A DNA stretch of 64,000 nucleotides from positions 1 to 64,000 of the forward strand of contig JAQBYI010000002.1 of NCBI GenBank assembly GCA_027622655.1, read 5' to 3'. Positions within the stretch are counted from its first letter, which is position 1; the number at the start of each line of letters is the position of its first letter. The notes below the pieces were generated by a model that did not search any database, was not told the origin of the DNA, and saw only the letters and a program-made list of their open reading frames with translations. Positions 33,447-48,502 of this stretch are shown here, piece by piece. Made by a program: the position numbers and the translations under genes. Source of the stretch: Gemmatimonadota bacterium. GTDB taxonomy: Bacteria > Gemmatimonadota > Gemmatimonadetes > Gemmatimonadales > Gemmatimonadaceae.

Positions 33447-34046
33447 CTACTTACGGAAGTAGCCGCCGGCAGCGCTCCGCTTGCCGCCCTCACGGTGTGC
33501 CTCGTCGGAGAGGGAGTGCACGCCCGTCGCGTCGATCCACCGGTTGTAGAAGTTGAACAGCGCGCAAACGGTGATGGCGTAGTAGATCTGTTCGTCCGTC
33601 CATCCGGCGGCGTACAGCGGCTTGATGTCGCTGGGCGAAATGTTTGGCGAATCCTCGTTCACCTTGTCGAGGAAGTGCATCAGCAGCTTCTCAGCGTCGG
33701 TGAGCCCCGAGCTGTCGATGTCTTCAAGGACTCCACGCACGAGTTCCTCGCTGCCCAGCAGGACCGCCGCGACCGCGGCGTGAGACTTCACTCAAAATGG
33801 GCAGTCGTTGCGCTGGCTCGTCCGCGCGGCAATGAGCTCACGAAAACCGGGGGTTAGGGGCGCGTCGCCCCTGAGGATCTCCTGGGTGAACTGAGCGAGG
33901 TGCTGCGTGGCGTGCGGCTTGAACGCGAACAAATGCCAGATCTGCGGATATTCGCGCCCGCTCGCGCGCGCCGCCCCGATGAGCGCCGTGTAGGGCGCAT
34001 CAGGGTGGGGATTCGACTCGACGCCCGGCAGGAACATCGGATCCAT
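33447..34046 (-). CDS. AhpD/carboxymuconolactone decarboxylase-family peroxidase-related protein with in-frame TGA (possible selenocysteine, CxxU)
   Basis: One continuous frame is read through TGA at 33792-33794. The N-terminal half (to residue 84) has LAQFTQEILRGDAPLTPGFRELIAARTSQRNDCPF. The other half resumes with VKSHAAVAAVLLG and ends with ITVCALFNFYNRWIDATGVHS. Peroxidase-related CMD proteins carry NxCPxCVxxH at this place, so the TGA replaces the second, redox-active Cys (C82-P-F-X85, His89). Total length about 199 matches the family. ATG 34046 has GAGG seven bases upstream. A SECIS-like hairpin follows the TGA. Nonsense mutation is the alternative, and other genes in the window also carry stops. 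Confidence 0.7.
33765..33780 (-). promoter_or_regulatory. SECIS-like hairpin candidate downstream of the in-frame TGA
   Basis: On the minus strand, eleven bases after TGA, CGCCGC and GCGGCG form a 6-bp stem with a GGTC loop. The loop begins 17 nt after the TGA, and its first two bases are G. This fits the published bacterial SECIS pattern of a loop about 16-37 nt downstream with an early loop G. The stem also encodes the Ala-rich segment AAVAA, so it could arise by chance. Confidence 0.4.
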
Positions 34047-34102
34047 CGTGTGCCTCGAAGCGCGGAAGTAGAACGGCTTCTGCTCCAGCGCAATATTGGG
34101 GC

Positions 34103-35377
34103 GTGACCAGCGATCGCGAAAGCGCCTTGAGGACCCCATACGGCGTCTGTGCGTGTGTCGGGCTCGGCGGCCTCTTCGCTGGAGTCACGGGACCGCTGCT
34201 CAGCGCGTTCGTACCGCCGCTCGTGCGCGACGCCCTGGGCGACCACCGCATGACGATTGGTCTGGTGATGGCCATCGACAACGTGCTCTTGCTCTTGCTT
34301 GTGCCGTGGGCCGGAGCCGCGTCTGACCGGGCGAGCGCCCGCGGACGCGGACGGATGCCAATGGTGATCGCGGGGCTCCTACTCGCTGCGGTGGGGATGG
34401 CGCTCTTCCCATGGTCGGCGAAGTTCGGGATTGCGGGCGTGATCGCGGCGATCGTCGTGCTCTACACAGGGATCAACATCCAGCGGTCGCCGTTCCAGGC
34501 GCTTGTCGCCGACGCGGTGCCGTCGCGATTCCGCTCGCTTGCCACAGGATCGGTCACCTTCCAGATGTCCTTCGGGGCGATCGTTTTCCTGATGCTTGGC
34601 CGCGCGCTGGGGATGCAGGCCGCGTTCCTCATCGCCTCTGTTACGGTGATCGCCATCGCGGTGGGGATGGGATTCGGGTTGCGCGAGCCGGCGGCATCGG
34701 GTGCGCCGGCCGCCGAGGCGTCGTTCCGGTCGCTGATTGATGCGGCGTCGGCGGCGGTTCGCGGGGTTGTGCCCGGAATGCGGGCAGTCTTCGTCGCGTC
34801 ACTGTTGCTGCAGCTGACTTTCCAGACGTTTACAACCTGGTTCGCGCTGCACGGAACCGAACGGTTCGGCGTGCGCCCGGAGGACGTGACGATCGGGTTC
34901 ATCGCGTGGGCCGTGGGCGGTGTGATCGGCGCGCTGCCAGCCGGGTTCGTCGGGCTGCGCATCGGCCGGCGCAACGCGATGCTGTTGGGGTTCGCGCTGA
35001 TGGCGGCATTCCTCGTCGCGCTCGACCGCGTGACGGGCATGGCGCAAGCCGCGCCTCTCCTGGCACTTGCGTCGGCGGCGTGGACGTTCCCAACAGTGAA
35101 CGCCTACCCGCTCTTCGTCGAGCCGATTCCGCGCGAAAAGCGTGGCGTGCTCGCGGCACTCTTTCTGCTCTGCAACGCGCTCGGCGGCGCGGTTGGTGAT
35201 CCGATGAACGGCGCCGTGTTCGATTTGTTCGGCAGCTATCGGCCGTTGTTCCTGATGATGGCAGCGTACACCGCGCTCGCGTTCGTTGCCGTGTTGTTCA
35301 TTCCGAGGGGATCAGGTGAGGCGGACACGGGGCAGTCTTGGAGCAGAGTCGGCGGAGCGCGTGCCGACCCGGGTTAG
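34103..35377 (+). CDS. MFS transporter (SLC45/sugar-type or YfkF-like)
   Basis: A 424-residue protein with 12 predicted transmembrane helices. It has VTGPLLSAFVPPLVRDALGD near the N-terminus, the cytosolic loop GAASDRASARGRGRMPMVIAG (motif A-like, D-R), VADAVPSRFRSLATG, and FVEPIPREKRGVLAALFLLCNALGGAVGDPMNG in the second half. These features resemble the SLC45-like sucrose/sugar MFS group. The substrate is not certain. It starts with GTG at 34103, 57 bp from the divergent AhpD-like gene. Convergent with the small 35312-35563 frame. Confidence 0.85.
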   Translation: MTSDRESALRTPYGVCACVGLGGLFAGVTGPLLSAFVPPLVRDALGDHRMTIGLVMAIDNVLLLLLVPWAGAASDRASARGRGRMPMVIAGLLLAAVGMALFPWSAKFGIAGVIAAIVVLYTGINIQRSPFQALVADAVPSRFRSLATGSVTFQMSFGAIVFLMLGRALGMQAAFLIASVTVIAIAVGMGFGLREPAASGAPAAEASFRSLIDAASAAVRGVVPGMRAVFVASLLLQLTFQTFTTWFALHGTERFGVRPEDVTIGFIAWAVGGVIGALPAGFVGLRIGRRNAMLLGFALMAAFLVALDRVTGMAQAAPLLALASAAWTFPTVNAYPLFVEPIPREKRGVLAALFLLCNALGGAVGDPMNGAVFDLFGSYRPLFLMMAAYTALAFVAVLFIPRGSGEADTGQSWSRVGGARADPG

Positions 35378-35623: not shown

Positions 35624-37084
35624 CTACGCCGTCATGTCGTTCGGCGGTTCCTCGCTCCGGCGACGGCGCTGCGGTTCCTGCGCCCGCCCGTACCGCCCGC
35701 GTTCGCTGCGCGAAATCTTGCGGCGGGCCACGAGCGCCTCGAGAACGATTTCGCACGCGAACACCACGAGCGCGTCGTCGCTATCCGGAGCAAGCGCATG
35801 CTCAATCACGAGCTGGCCGAGCCCGGGCACCGTTTCGAACGCCTGGCGGAGAACGGCTGCGCCAGCGTCATCGGCCACCTGCAGCGCTGCGCCCTCGTCG
35901 AACCACATCACGATGTTGTCGGTGTCGGCGTCGGGAGCCTGCGCGCGTAGGGTGGCGTCGGCGGCGCGCCGGATCAGTTCACGGGCAATGTTCGCGGCGC
36001 CCGCGAGTTCGCCCTCGTATTCGAGCTCGAGTTTGCCGGTGATCGCCGGAAGCGCAGCGTACACATCGCCGAGCCGTGGGACGACGCTCTTTTCTCCCAG
36101 GGCGAGCGCACGGCGCTCGGCATTCGACACCACGTTTTCCATCACCGTTATGGGCATGCGCTGCGATACGCCCGATCGGCGGTCGATTCGCTTGTCGGTG
36201 CGCGCCTCGAACGCGACTCGCTCGACGACTTCTTCGAGCAGCGGTGAAATCACGAGCTTGACCTTGTCGCGCGCTGTCCACGCTTCCGCGCGCGTGATCT
36301 CCATTCCGAGCTCGACTTCTTCCGGATAGTGCGTCGTGACTTCGCTTCCGATGCGGTCCTTGAGTGGCGTGATGATCTTGCCGCGCGCAGTGTAGTCCTC
36401 GGGGTTCGCCGTGAAGCAGAGGAGCACGTCGAGTGGGAGGCGCACGGGATATCCTTTGATCTGGACGTCTCCTTCCTGCATGATGTTGAACAGCGCAACC
36501 TGCACCTTGCCGGCGAGGTCGGGGAGTTCGTTCAGCGCAAAGATTCCGCGATTGGCGCGCGGGAGCATACCGTAGTGGATGGTCAGCTCATCCGAGAGGA
36601 TGTGTCCGCCGCGTGCGGCTTTGATCGGATCCAGATCACCAATGATGTCGGCGACTGTGACGTCTGGCGTTGCGAGTTTTTCGACGAACCTCTGCTCACG
36701 GCCAACCCACGCGATCGGCGTGTCTTCGCCGGCCTTGGCGATTAGCTCTCGTGCGAACTTCGATATCGGTGCGAACGGCGAGTCGTTGATCTCGCTCCCC
36801 GCGACGATCGGGATTGCCTCGTCGAGCAATGAGGTGAGCGAACGCAATATTCGCGATTTCGCCTGCCCGCGAAGCCCGAGCAGAATGAAGTTGTGGCGCG
36901 AGAGCAACGCGTTGACGATCTGCGGAACGACGCTGTCATCGTAGCCAAGGATTCCGTCGAACACGGGCCCACCGTGCTTGAGGCGGCGGAGCAAGTTGGC
37001 GCGGATCTCATCCTTGACCGGCTTTGTGCCCGTTCCGAACTTTGATCGCTTTAGTTGTCCTAGATTCGTCGGAAGCTGTACCAT
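35624..37084 (-). CDS. AAA+ ATPase of the MoxR / Mg-chelatase ChlI family
   Basis: A 486-residue ATPase. Walker A is GLRGQAKSRILRSL (about residue 76), the Walker-B-like segment is RGIFALNELPDLAGKVQVALFNIMQEGD, and the helix-2 insert, sensor 1 (LLCFTANPEDYTARGKIITPLKDRIG) and a C-terminal lid follow. Members work as hexameric motors with a VWA protein that senses or remodels a target complex. The likely partner is the VWA protein encoded at 22881-24161. A short Arg/Glu tail ends the protein. It is divergent from the DUF5916 gene (45 bp). Confidence 0.88.
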   Translation of the reverse strand: MVQLPTNLGQLKRSKFGTGTKPVKDEIRANLLRRLKHGGPVFDGILGYDDSVVPQIVNALLSRHNFILLGLRGQAKSRILRSLTSLLDEAIPIVAGSEINDSPFAPISKFARELIAKAGEDTPIAWVGREQRFVEKLATPDVTVADIIGDLDPIKAARGGHILSDELTIHYGMLPRANRGIFALNELPDLAGKVQVALFNIMQEGDVQIKGYPVRLPLDVLLCFTANPEDYTARGKIITPLKDRIGSEVTTHYPEEVELGMEITRAEAWTARDKVKLVISPLLEEVVERVAFEARTDKRIDRRSGVSQRMPITVMENVVSNAERRALALGEKSVVPRLGDVYAALPAITGKLELEYEGELAGAANIARELIRRAADATLRAQAPDADTDNIVMWFDEGAALQVADDAGAAVLRQAFETVPGLGQLVIEHALAPDSDDALVVFACEIVLEALVARRKISRSERGRYGRAQEPQRRRRSEEPPNDMTA

Positions 37085-37128
37085 TCGCCGCTGATTTGAG
37101 ATGTCCGGAATCTAATCCGAGTGTCAGA

Positions 37129-38181
37129 GTGTCGATTGTTCGCAGTTGCATCGTGTCAGCGGTGATGGTTGCCGTTCCGTTCGGGGTCGGCGCACAGGGT
37201 GCGGCAACCGTTGACGTTTCGCCCGAGATGGCCAGAGCGTGTACGGCCGGGCCGATTCTGCGGGAAGCCGGCGCGCCCGCAGCAGCGCGACCGACGATTC
37301 GTGCCACGCGCGTGGGAGCGGGCGGTCGCGCTCCCGTGCTGGACGGCAAGCTCGACGATGCAGTGTGGGCAACTGCAGAGGCGGTAGCGGACTTTCGTCA
37401 ATTCGAGCCGGCTCCGGGCGCATGCGGTACGGAACGCACGGAGGCGCGCATCGTCATCGACGGTGACGCCGTGTACGTCGGCATGAGGATGTACGACACG
37501 CACGTCGACTCGATTCGCGCGCAGTTCCTGCGCCGTGACGACGGCGGCGCCTCCGCCGATTGGGCGGCAGTAATTCTCGACAGCTACCACGACCGGCGCA
37601 CGGCCTACCGATTTGCGGCCACTCCACGCGGCACGCGAACAGATGTGTTGCATCTCAACGATACCGGCGCCGATTCGTCGTGGGACGCCGTTTGGGATGT
37701 TGCGACGGCTGTGGATGCCGAGGGGTGGACGGCGGAGTTCAGGATTCCACTCTCCCAACTGCGGTTCAGCACGAGTGGCGACATGGTGTGGGGAGTCAAC
37801 TTTTCGCGCACAATAGGTCGCCGGTCGGAGGTTACTTACTGGGCGCCGGTGGTCCCGACTGATGGCCGCTTCGTGTCGCTCATGGGTGACTTGCACGGGC
37901 TCGAGGGGGCCAATGCCGGTCGGCCGCTTGAACTTCTCCCGTACACCGTCGGGCGCATCACAACGGACCCTACCGTTGCGGGCAATCCGTTGAAAGGGCG
38001 CCACGTCACTTGGGGCTCTGCCGGCCTGGACTTCAAGTACGGGATCACCTCGAACTTTGTGCTGACCGCGACCGTCAATCCGGACTTCGGACAGGTCGAT
38101 GCCGATCCGGCGGTCGTGAATCTCACGGCGTTCGAAAACTTCTACCCCGAGCGTCGGCCGTTCTTCACGGAAGGAACATAG
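37129..38181 (+). pseudogene. DUF5916 (CBM9-like) protein, N-terminal part, ends at in-frame TAG
   Basis: GTG 37129 gives a signal peptide (IVRSCIVSAVMVAVPFGVGAQ). A CBM9-like carbohydrate-binding domain follows (about residues 50-230: LDGKLDDAVWATAEAV, TEARIVIDGDAVYVGMRMYD, SPLAxW-type strands). Then comes the start of the DUF5916 barrel (FSRTIGRRSEVTYWAP). The frame stops at TAG (38179) inside the conserved FFTEG-x-xF-Y-SRR region. The next codons in the same frame continue the motif (IFNFPLVPEGHAFYSRRVG), so one substitution, for example GAG to TAG, explains the break. Confidence 0.75.
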
Positions 38182-39842
38182 ATTTTCAATTTTCCGCTCG
38201 TGCCGGAGGGACATGCATTCTATTCAAGGCGTGTCGGGCGGGCGCCGCAGGTATCCGCCAGTACTCCCAGCGGTGGCTTTTCGGACGTGCCTGGCACCGC
38301 GACGATTCTCGGCGCGCTGAAGCTTTCGGGCAAGACGTCGGGCGGAACGTCGCTCGGGCTCATCGCGTCGCTCACCGATCAGGCCGATGCCACGACACTG
38401 AGCGGCGCGGGAACTCGTGCTTCTCAGGCTGTCGAGCCGAAGACTCAGTATCTGGTCGGGCGTCTCAGCAAGGACCTTCGGCAGGGGCGGAGCGGGTTCG
38501 GTGCACTCGTCACTGCTACGAACCGTGACGTCGGCGATCCGTCATTCAGCAGGCTGCGTTCATCTGCGCTGACCGGTGGATTCGATGCGTTTCATCGGTT
38601 TGGCGGCGACCGCTTTGAGATCAAGAGCTGGGCGTTCGCCTCCCAGGTCCGCGGGAGCCGGGAAGCGCTCATTGCGACGCAGCGGGCATCCCCCACTACT
38701 TCCAGCGCCCGGACGCAGACGGCTACGACGTGGATTCTGCGCGGACATCATTGGTCGGTGCGGCTGGCGAGTTCTTTCTGTCCCGAATTTGCCGGAGCCG
38801 GCTCACCTGGCAGATTGGCGGCGGGTTCCGCAGCCCCAGATTCGAGGTGAACGACGCCGGATTCGTCAGTTACACGGACATATGGTACAACTCTGTTCAA
38901 GCCCGATACCGCGTAACGCAACCGACTCGCCCCGTGCGCGACTGGTGGGTGGACGGTTCCGTGGTCATGGCACAGACGTTCGGGGGACAACTGGTCCGTC
39001 CGTCCGTGAACCTGCAGACGAGAACGCAATTCAGAAATTTCTGGACTATCAGCACAACCACGGACCGGTGGAATTCGCATCTCTGGCCCTGGGAATTGCG
39101 CGGCGGACCGGCGCTGCGACGATCCGGATATACCAATGTGAATGTGACGCTCAGTTCGGATTCGCGTCGCTCGTGGCTAGTGGGCGCGCATAGTCGAGTG
39201 CAGGTGTCCGACGAGCTCGGTGGTTCCGTCGTGGTCGTTGACCCGTCAATGACGTTCAGGCCGACGTCGCGCACGACCGTTACACTCACGCCTTCTTGGA
39301 CGAAGAATAGCGCGCCGGCGCAGTACGTCGCCTCGTCAATTTCGACGACGGGGACGCGGGAGTATGTGGTGGGCCAGCTCGATCAGACGACTGTCGCGAT
39401 GACCGGCCGGCTCAGTCTGGCACTCAATCCGCTGATGACGCTCGATGTCTATGCACAGCCGTTTCTCAGCGGCGGTAGCTACACGGCGTTCCGGCGCGTT
39501 GCCGACCCGCACGGTCAGGCGACAGACGCGCGCTATCCTCTCGTTCCAGGGGCGGCGCTGACTTACTCCGCTGCCACGGAGCGCTACGCGGCCGACCTTA
39601 ACGGTGATCAGGCCGCGGATATTTCGTTCGCCAATCCCGATTTCAGCGTACGATCGCTGCGAACCAACACTGTGCTTCGCTGGGAGTTTCGCCCGGGCTC
39701 CACCGTGTACCTGGTGTGGGCGCAAACGCGTGATGATGAGGCGCTGCGCTCGTTTGACGCCATTGATGACGCGGCGTTTCTCTTTCGCGCTCCGGCAAAG
39801 AACGTCGTAATGATCAAGATCGCCTATTGGATTGATCGGTAG
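38182..39842 (+). pseudogene. DUF5916 protein, C-terminal part (second lesion: C-run frameshift near 38690)
   Basis: Continues the 37129-38181 gene after the TAG in the same frame to about 38690, then needs a one-base shift. The C-run at 38690-38694 has five Cs; six would give ASPHYFQRPDADGYDV, which matches the family. After the shift, frame 38730-39842 carries the rest of the beta-barrel (SLVGAAGEFFLSRICRSRLT, DIWYNSVQARYRVT, VYAQPFLSGGSYTAFRRVAD, GSTVYLVWAQTRDDEA). The ending FLFRAPAKNVVMIKIAYWIDR is typical. DUF5916 proteins are outer-membrane or surface proteins associated with polysaccharide use. Two separate lesions in one gene support a pseudogene or poor consensus. Confidence 0.75.
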
Positions 39843-46143: not shown

Positions 46144-47078
46144 GACACGCTCCCCGGATTGGCGCCGAACACTCCGGGGTTGAGCACACCGGCTGGGTCG
46201 AAGCGCTCCTTCAAACGCCGGGCGACACTGGTCGCAAACGGATCACCGTCGAGCCGCCGTGGGTGCGGATCGAGCGCGCGTAGTCGTGTCCAGACACTGG
46301 CGTCGATTTCCGTGACTTCTCCCGCGGCCGACGCGCCAGCATGCCCCGCCTCTACAAGCGCTGCGTTCCCGCCGTAGCGGGCTATCACGCAGCCGGCCGG
46401 AAGTGAGAGGGCGCCGGCGAGGCGCTCATCAATCGATTCACAGGCGATGGGCTGCACGTCTGCACGACGGATAATCGCGGCCAGCTCGACGTCTGCGGTT
46501 CGCGGTGCCACACAAAGCGTCCGATCAACGGTCGGGCGCGCACGCAGGCGAACAGTCACTTCGGTAATGACGCCGAGCGTTCCAAATGCGCCGACCATCA
46601 GCCGGGTGAGGTCGAACCCCGCGACGTTCTTCACGACGCGCCCGCCTCCGCGAATCGTCGTGCCGGTTCCATCCACGAACTCGACGCCGAGTGCAATATC
46701 GCGCGGTCGGCCGAGCGCATTCGCGCATGGCCCGGCGGTCGCAGTGGCGAAGGTCGCACCGATGGTGCCGTCGTCGTCGCCCCAGGAGAGCAGGGGACAC
46801 CACTGATTGTTCGGCGCGGTGATCGCGTTCAGCTCGGCGAGTGTCGTTCCCGCGCGGACCGTGAGCGTGAGATCCGACGGTACGTACGCAACGACGCCGG
46901 TGAGCTTCGCTAGTGAAAGTGTCGGCAAATCTGCGCCCACGCGCGCCGCTGGTGAGCCGGCGCCGGACCACCGCCCGCTTCCGAGCACCCGAAGCGGCGC
47001 TCCTGCCGAATGCGCCGCGCGGACTACTTCGGCCACATCGGCTGTCGACAACACTTCCGCCGGAGCGCGTACGCTCAT
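46140..47078 (-). CDS. glcE: Glycolate oxidase FAD-binding subunit
   Basis: A FAD-binding (PCMH-type) domain in 312 residues: VLGSGRWSGAG (cofactor strand), LSWGDDDGTIGATFATATAGPCANALGRPRD, GGRVVKNVAGFDLTRLMVGAFGTLGVITEVTVRL, and a reduced C-terminal cap. This is typical of the shorter GlcE partner of GlcD. ATG 47078 overlaps the glcD stop (ATGA); a start at 47105 would overlap more. It should form a complex with GlcD and GlcF. Confidence 0.9.
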   Translation of the reverse strand: MSVRAPAEVLSTADVAEVVRAAHSAGAPLRVLGSGRWSGAGSPAARVGADLPTLSLAKLTGVVAYVPSDLTLTVRAGTTLAELNAITAPNNQWCPLLSWGDDDGTIGATFATATAGPCANALGRPRDIALGVEFVDGTGTTIRGGGRVVKNVAGFDLTRLMVGAFGTLGVITEVTVRLRARPTVDRTLCVAPRTADVELAAIIRRADVQPIACESIDERLAGALSLPAGCVIARYGGNAALVEAGHAGASAAGEVTEIDASVWTRLRALDPHPRRLDGDPFATSVARRLKERFDPAGVLNPGVFGANPGSVS

Positions 47079-48502
47079 TTGCGGGCTCCTGGAGCGGCCA
47101 TCCACTCACGGCAACGATGAACCGGCACGACCTTCCCCGGATTGGCTCGCCGGGCCGGATCGAACGCATCGCGGAGGCGGCACATTGCGTCGAGCGAATC
47201 CGGCGAGAAGAGCGCATCCATATATGGAAGCTTGTCGAGCCCGACACCGTGCTCGCCGGTAATCGTCCCGCCCTCGGCGATGCAGAGTTCCATGATCTCC
47301 TTGCACGCGGCATGCACCCTCGCCGACTCGTCGGCGTCATCACCGTTGTACGGGATGTTCGGGTGCAGGTTGCCGTCACCGGCGTGGAACACGTTGCAGA
47401 CACGGATGCCGTGTCGTTCGCCGATCTCGGCAATTGCGCGCAGGATTGGCGCCAGCTTGGTGCGCGGTACGACTGCGTCCTGCACAGCGAGGTTTGCAGC
47501 AACGCGACCCATCGCGCCGAACGCCTTCTTGCGGCCCTGCCAAAGGCGCGCGCGCTCGGCCGGATTCGTAGCCGTTCGCACAGTGCGTGCGCCCGACTCG
47601 CTGCAGATGGCTTTGATGGCTGCAACGTCGTCGTCGAGGCCGGCCACGGGGCCGTCCACTTCAATGATGAGCGCTGCGGCGGCGTCGGTTGGATATCCGG
47701 CTGCGTATATGGAAGCTTCAACAGCCGCGATCGTTCCCGCGTCAATAAGCTCCAGCGCCGCTGGAACGATGCCGGCCGCGATGATCGCGCTCACCGCTTC
47801 GGCTGCGCCGTCTACCGTGACGAAGTCAGCGAGCATCGTACAGATGCGCGCTGGGTTCTGCGTGAGGCGTACGGTGACATCGACCGCAAGTCCGAAACAT
47901 CCCTCTGACCCGACAAACGCGCCGAGGAGGTCGTAGCCGATGTCGTCGTTGCGCGGGGCTTCGAGCACGATCAGCTCTCCGTCCGGCAGCGCGACGGTGG
48001 CCGCCGCCACGTGGTTGAGCGTCACGCCGTACTTGAGGCAGTGGGGTCCGCCGGCATTCTCCGCAACATTGCCGCCAATCGTGCACGCAGTCTGACTCGA
48101 TGGGTCCGGCGCATAATGAAGCCCGTGCGGGAGTGCGGCGCGGGACAGCGTCGCGTTTACCACTCCGGGTTCAACAGTCGCAGTCATGGCGACCGGATCA
48201 ATCGCGATGATGCGGCGCATCCGATGCATGCCGACCAGCACGATTCCGTCCGCGAGCGCTCCTCCCGAAAGTCCGGTACCGGCGCCACGCGCCACGAACG
48301 GCGTATCGGCGGCGGCAAGGGCGCGCACCACTGCGATCGCTTCGTCACGCGTACCCGGCGACACCATCATGCGCGGCCGCTTGTGGTAGCCGGGGAGTCC
48401 GTCGTTCTCGTACACGAGGAGCTCCACCGCCCGCGTCGTGACGTGGCGCGTGCCGACGATCCCGGCGAGGGTGGTGGCGAGGGAAGTGGCGAGGGGATCC
48501 AC
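47075..48502 (-). CDS. glcD: Glycolate oxidase subunit, FAD-linked oxidase
   Basis: A 475-residue VAO-family oxidase. Visible features are ELLVYENDGLPGYHKRPRMM, FVARGAGTGLSGGALADG, ATVEPGVVNATLSRAALPHGLHYAPDPSSQTACTIGGN, then LLGAFVGSEGCFGLAVDVTVRL. The C-terminal domain has CNVFHAGDGNLHPNIPYN (two active-site His) and GGTITGEHGVGLDKL. GTG 48502 is chosen; a longer frame to 48589 crosses the terminator-like hairpin upstream. It is the first gene of the operon. It oxidises glycolate, lactate or similar 2-hydroxy acids. Confidence 0.92.
   Translation of the reverse strand: MDPLATSLATTLAGIVGTRHVTTRAVELLVYENDGLPGYHKRPRMMVSPGTRDEAIAVVRALAAADTPFVARGAGTGLSGGALADGIVLVGMHRMRRIIAIDPVAMTATVEPGVVNATLSRAALPHGLHYAPDPSSQTACTIGGNVAENAGGPHCLKYGVTLNHVAAATVALPDGELIVLEAPRNDDIGYDLLGAFVGSEGCFGLAVDVTVRLTQNPARICTMLADFVTVDGAAEAVSAIIAAGIVPAALELIDAGTIAAVEASIYAAGYPTDAAAALIIEVDGPVAGLDDDVAAIKAICSESGARTVRTATNPAERARLWQGRKKAFGAMGRVAANLAVQDAVVPRTKLAPILRAIAEIGERHGIRVCNVFHAGDGNLHPNIPYNGDDADESARVHAACKEIMELCIAEGGTITGEHGVGLDKLPYMDALFSPDSLDAMCRLRDAFDPARRANPGKVVPVHRCREWMAAPGARK

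Follow-up and report, generated by a model that had tools for sequence, protein, structure and literature searches.

We found that a gene on the minus strand of the window, the 64,000-nucleotide stretch of Gemmatimonadota DNA analysed here, is almost certainly a genuine selenoprotein gene. Judging from its sequence and from its relatives, the UGA at codon 85 would be read as selenocysteine (Sec) in a redox enzyme of the AhpD/CMD fold. The gene runs from 34046 down to 33447 and encodes a peroxidase-related protein of 199 residues with the AhpD/CMD fold. The features of the gene are as follows.

34053-34056, minus strand: GAGG, probable ribosome-binding site (from a reading of the sequence), 6 nt upstream of the ATG at 34046
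33447-34046, minus strand: predicted AhpD-like peroxidase-related selenoprotein gene, 199 codons including one TGA as Sec, then TAA
33837-33839, minus strand: Glu70 codon, counterpart of the AhpD proton-relay Glu, invariant, spacing according to PMC3141380
33801-33803, minus strand: Cys82 codon TGC, putative redox partner of Sec85, invariant in 24 aligned relatives
33792-33794, minus strand: in-frame TGA, predicted Sec85, second residue of the CxxC-type motif C82-P-F-U85, TGA in 105 of 116 relatives
33780-33782, minus strand: His89 codon CAC, counterpart of the AhpD proton-relay His, invariant in 24 aligned relatives

Reading frame and protein family

An earlier note on this DNA had described one frame continuing through the TGA at 33792-33794, naming no strand. 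The frame is open on the minus strand, where two ORFs called with translation table 11 (34139-33792 and 33791-33447) fuse into one across the TGA. Most of the 24 aligned relatives have Met at the position of the ATG at 34046, and counting from this start the C82-P-F-X85 and His89 numbering holds. The Pfam CMD domain spans the TGA (39.9 bits), and the protein scored 88.6 bits against NCBIfam TIGR01926 ('peroxidase-related enzyme'), above the curated cut-off of 81.8, in agreement with the previous description of a CMD/peroxidase-related fold on both sides of the TGA. The comparison with TIGR01926 proteins also confirmed that the TGA stands at the second Cys of CxxC, and related PDB proteins likewise have Cys at this position.

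Active site and probable reaction

An AlphaFold2 model of the protein had a pLDDT of 96, and its best fold matches were the peroxidase-related AhpD-like structures 3C1L, 6K40, 2PFX, 2PRR, and 2OYO. The proton relay of Mycobacterium tuberculosis AhpD consists of Glu118, Cys130, His132, Cys133, and His137 (PMC3141380). Four of these five residues were matched in the window protein by Glu70, Cys82, Sec85, and His89, and the fifth, His132, corresponds to Phe84, at a position that is not absolutely conserved (PMC3141380). Sec85 would thus take the position of the catalytic Cys133. The window protein shares with M. tuberculosis AhpD and Pseudomonas PA0269 a CxxC-type site in which a Glu precedes the first Cys by 12 residues and a His follows the second by four. 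It differs from both in that Sec replaces the second Cys and that Phe takes the position of His132 or Tyr50, and its fold as a whole matches that of M. tuberculosis AhpD only weakly. By analogy with these enzymes, we infer that Cys82 and Sec85 may form a selenenylsulfide redox pair beside Glu70 and His89. Judging from the family, the enzyme would be likely to use thiols to reduce a peroxide or a partner protein in its oxidised state.

The same selenoprotein could also act on another substrate, for instance in a Bmp8-like reductive dehalogenation, or its substrate could be something that the adjoining MFS transporter carries. Bmp8, a debrominase of the CMD fold, shows that other chemistry is possible, and its structures (6OHI and 6OHJ) were among the fold matches with a TM score of about 0.7, but they came far behind the peroxidase-related structures in rank. 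The gene is flanked by the following neighbours.

34103-35377, plus strand: divergent MFS transporter gene, adjoining the selenoprotein gene, also found at loci L029, L030, L033, and L111
32269-33372, minus strand: fumarylacetoacetate-hydrolase-family gene, about 75 nt downstream, not conserved as a neighbour

The MFS gene, present at those four related loci too, speaks for a role connected with transport, but the gene neighbourhood is otherwise variable. It was the only recurring neighbour, and the neighbours in Acidobacteriota vary. The clustering of neighbouring ORFs was blurred by shadow ORFs, and a promoter and terminator scan found nothing. Neighbourhood was rejected as a guide to function since only the MFS gene recurs. 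We regard a different substrate as improbable, and the reduction of a peroxide or protein partner by a Cys-Sec pair is the reading that we retain.

Protein-level constraint beyond the TGA

In bacteria, the reading of UGA as Sec is selenium-dependent and has to compete with termination. This lends some plausibility to a programmed truncation, in which the TGA serves as the stop of a short N-terminal protein or as a selenium-dependent choice between products. The half of the gene after the TGA is under constraint at the protein level, however. Downstream of the TGA, comparison with each of the two closest relatives gave more synonymous than amino-acid differences (20 to 15 and 24 to 9), and the same was true upstream. 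In more distant pairs (L031-L033) amino-acid differences downstream equalled or exceeded synonymous ones, which is expected with saturation but makes this evidence less clean. Also, a product of 84 residues would probably lack activity because a stop at the TGA removes the active-site residue. Truncation as the purpose of the codon is therefore very unlikely, while a ratio of short and full-length products that varies with selenium is compatible with a Sec codon at this position.

Relatives at the TGA codon

The alignment of homologues suggested in the earlier note showed TGA in most relatives, Cys in a few, and no random stops. Pooled relatives that were readable at the codon came from several phyla and had either TGA (105 of 116) or Cys (11 of 116). 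In the same taxonomic family (179 genomes), relatives of 46-84% identity all had TGA and none had Cys. Across the wider phylum, to an identity as low as about 31%, TGA was the usual state and Cys occurred in a few members. A scan of named genomes yielded 80 loci, mostly from Acidobacteriota, with some from Gemmatimonadota, Myxococcota, and others; 77 were readable at the codon, 68 with TGA and nine with Cys. These loci were found with patterns from conserved protein stretches and, thus, are not an unbiased census. The Cys homologues comprise L057, L065, and the nine named-genome loci. The two collections share some species, and the tree built from them has 114 rows, of which 107 are different.

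These counts bear on whether the TGA could be a sequencing error or a nonsense mutation that arose at random as an AhpD gene decayed. The assembly is in 115 contigs, and other genes in the window are broken by stops and frameshifts, as the earlier note had cautioned. A DUF5916/CBM9 gene at 37024-39842 on the plus strand has an in-frame TAG at 38179-38181 and later frame changes, and is an ordinary pseudogene or an assembly error. Against such an origin for the TGA, the codon is conserved in 105 relatives that were mostly sequenced independently, the flanking residues are conserved, and the codons of the hairpin described below are frozen. Since the TGA and both protein halves are conserved, error and decay are excluded for practical purposes.

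Sec machinery and stop-codon usage

The assembly that contains the window, on its contig C67, has 3.14 Mb and is 99.7% complete. A search for the Sec genes, which the earlier note had proposed, found all four in this genome. There is one selA (452 bits), one selD (384 bits), and one selB (328 bits), whose single open frame covers the EF-Tu-like as well as the C-terminal part. A tRNA-Sec gene (selC) with the anticodon TCA lies 115 bases past the SelD match. With selA, selB, selC, and selD all present and free of stops, the genome qualifies as Sec-decoding.

Of the family genomes with a strong TGA relative, 25 of 29 have SelA, compared to 80 of the 150 others (Fisher p 8e-4, with kinship ignored). 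Two of the four SelA-less genomes with a strong TGA relative carry a tRNA-Sec, and the other two are incomplete. The MAGs G079 and G080 (72% and 86% complete), in which the TGA gene is present, had no SelA and no tRNA-Sec above the cut-off.

A frame that is open through a TGA could also mean that the codon has been reassigned to an ordinary amino acid, or that it is read by leaky suppression, in either case independently of selenium. The presence of the complete Sec machinery argues against both, as does the position itself, which is otherwise Cys and unfit for another residue. Reassignment of the genetic code was rejected because TGA is an ordinary and common stop, ending 12 of the 34 long ORFs in the window and 39 of the 113 family genes with a visible end. 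We give these selenium-free readings practically no credence, and Sec remains the preferred reading of codon 85.

The hairpin downstream of the TGA

A short hairpin follows the TGA, and the last base of the His89 codon is the first base of its stem.

33765-33780, minus strand: candidate SECIS hairpin, stem CGCCGC (33780-33775), loop GGTC (33774-33771), stem GCGGCG (33770-33765)

Its geometry is exactly as previously claimed, with an 11-nt spacer after the TGA, a 6-bp stem, and a GGTC loop that lies 17 nt from the TGA; the folding energy is -12.4 kcal/mol. The published model of the bacterial SECIS has a stem of 4-16 bp and a loop of 3-9 nt at a distance of 16-37 nt from the UGA, a folding energy of -7.5 kcal/mol or lower, and a G in the first two loop positions (PMC13188914). 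The loop follows the form N1-G-[G/U]-N2 with N1 and N2 paired (PMC13188914, fig. 2A). The window hairpin satisfies all of these constraints, and no difference from the model was found. An Rfam search of the region returned no family that matches the hairpin. The GGUC loop presumably recalls that of Escherichia coli fdhF.

Single-sequence folding was rejected as proof of a SECIS since almost equally good folds come from shuffled sequences and random synonymous codings. The hairpin was no stronger than shuffled sequence (z -0.64), and random synonymous codings of the peptide HAAVAA gave six of six pairs in 26% of draws. The earlier caution that the stem could pair by chance is, therefore, right for a single sequence. 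One GC-rich sequence means little, and it is the comparison across relatives that makes the hairpin convincing.

Among the TGA members of the phylum (n=37), codons +4 to +9 (CAC GCC GCG GTC GCG GCG) were each 94-100% one codon; GCC, for example, was used in 34 of 35 cases compared to a background of 29%. Amino acids conserved elsewhere in the gene used several codons in the same set, and the neighbouring codons vary. In this set, 99% of cells of the six-pair stem were paired, with a covariation score that was reached by none of 500 shuffles and that fell when the stem was shifted along the alignment. In the larger set, all six stem pairs were present in 97 of the 105 TGA members, and the loop ends were always complementary. 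Changes in the hairpin were mostly compensated (n=105), both in the stem (pairs 1, 3, and 4) and between the loop ends. Pair 1 changed from C-G to U-A, pair 3 to G-U, and pair 4 to G-C and U-A, while pairs 5 and 6 were invariable. The loop was GGUC in 82 of the 105 members and AGUU in 23, and the mixed forms GGUU and AGUC never occurred. This coordinated switch took about nine steps on a FastTree phylogeny, in keeping with the N1-N2 pairing that the SECIS model places at the two ends of the loop.

Where Cys relatives share the HAAVAA peptide, their codons were scattered, and stem pairs 1 and 4 were mostly lost. The constraint is thus tied to the TGA and not to the protein, since these relatives do not keep the codons. 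Together, these sequence comparisons indicate that the hairpin is under selection as RNA. The earlier note had put the gene forward as a possible CxxU member, which is now supported by the sel genes, the conserved TGA, and the RNA-level selection on the hairpin; the sequence analyses turned up none of the findings that the note had named as refuting it. In the proposed mechanism, SelB with Sec-tRNA-Sec would bind the hairpin 11 nt past the UGA at codon 85, and Sec would be inserted instead of termination. The machinery and the hairpin are seen in the sequence, and from them we infer the insertion.

Other TGA-containing CMD genes in the genome

The same genome (G000) has two further CMD-family genes in which a TGA stands in frame at the second Cys. 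The one on contig C92 at 46980-47228 (L003, 1501-1749) has the motif RCRYU and a 7-bp hairpin about 10 nt past the TGA, and is probably another selenoprotein gene, as read from its sequence. The other, on contig C37 at 36001-36120 (L002, 1300-1680), has the motif KCRYU and a hairpin that starts about 10 nt after the TGA. This gene may have been shortened by an insertion because a transposase-like ORF adjoins its 5' side.

Evolution and linkage to sel genes

Gemmatirosa kalamazoonensis has a plasmid-borne relative of the window gene. On its plasmid 2 (L071), selA and selB come after one AhpD-like selenoprotein copy. The same order occurs in genome G014 (L072), where selA, selB, selD, and tRNA-Sec are all no more than about 5 kb from the AhpD-like selenoprotein gene. 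The window copy is not adjacent to sel genes. In Pseudomonadales, selA-selB-selC are described as having been transferred together with the selenoprotein gene fdhA (PMC1794560), and an AhpD-like gene with sel genes would be a parallel case. In the tree, members from Gemmatimonadota were found at separate places among Acidobacteriota, and this scatter suggests horizontal transfer of the gene.

Inside the Sec group lies a clade of seven Cys proteins from Acidobacteriaceae and one Bdellovibrionaceae (L130, L133, L135-L137, L142, and L154; support 100/97), in which the SECIS codons are absent. This suggests a candidate reversal from Sec to Cys, a change called rare in a 2026 review (PMC13188914). 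Both the transfer and the reversal are to be read with care, since the supports around the Cys clade are mixed and the root is arbitrary. A tentative reading, which we hold to be somewhat less probable than its contrary, is that in some lineages the gene is the payload of a portable Sec cassette. It would have moved between Acidobacteriota and Gemmatimonadota in Sec form, and some Cys forms would have arisen by later reversal with loss of the SECIS.

Relation to known AhpD-like selenoproteins and significance

AhpD-like CxxU selenoproteins (COG2128/TIGR01926) were first predicted in 2005 from Sargasso Sea data (PMC1088965), and a selenoprotein of the TIGR01926 type is listed in the 2026 review (PMC13188914). 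The window protein belongs to the same family, with Sec at the second position and a bacterial SECIS directly after the UGA; it differs in representing a Gemmatimonadota/Acidobacteriota branch with CPFU and CLFU motifs. Among the papers covered by literature searches on selenoproteins of Gemmatimonadota and Acidobacteria, none described this gene. The curated NF041238 family, alkylhydroperoxidase-related (seleno)protein (CFYUT), includes Sec members and has a homologous domain. The window protein is not a member because it scored 40.7 bits against a cut-off of 175. This kind of selenoprotein is, therefore, already known, and the present gene is a well-supported further case.

For a known kind of protein, the evidence from about 100 relatives is unusually clean. 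Standard ORF calling with table 11 splits the gene in two, and the same is expected wherever TGA is treated as a stop only. Two further points of interest in the family are the candidate reversal from Sec to Cys and the plasmid on which a selenoprotein gene lies next to sel genes. It also provides a natural experiment on SECIS recognition, in which HAAVAA is under RNA constraint in the TGA members and not in the Cys members, and in which the loop has repeatedly switched from G-C to A-U around a fixed central GU.
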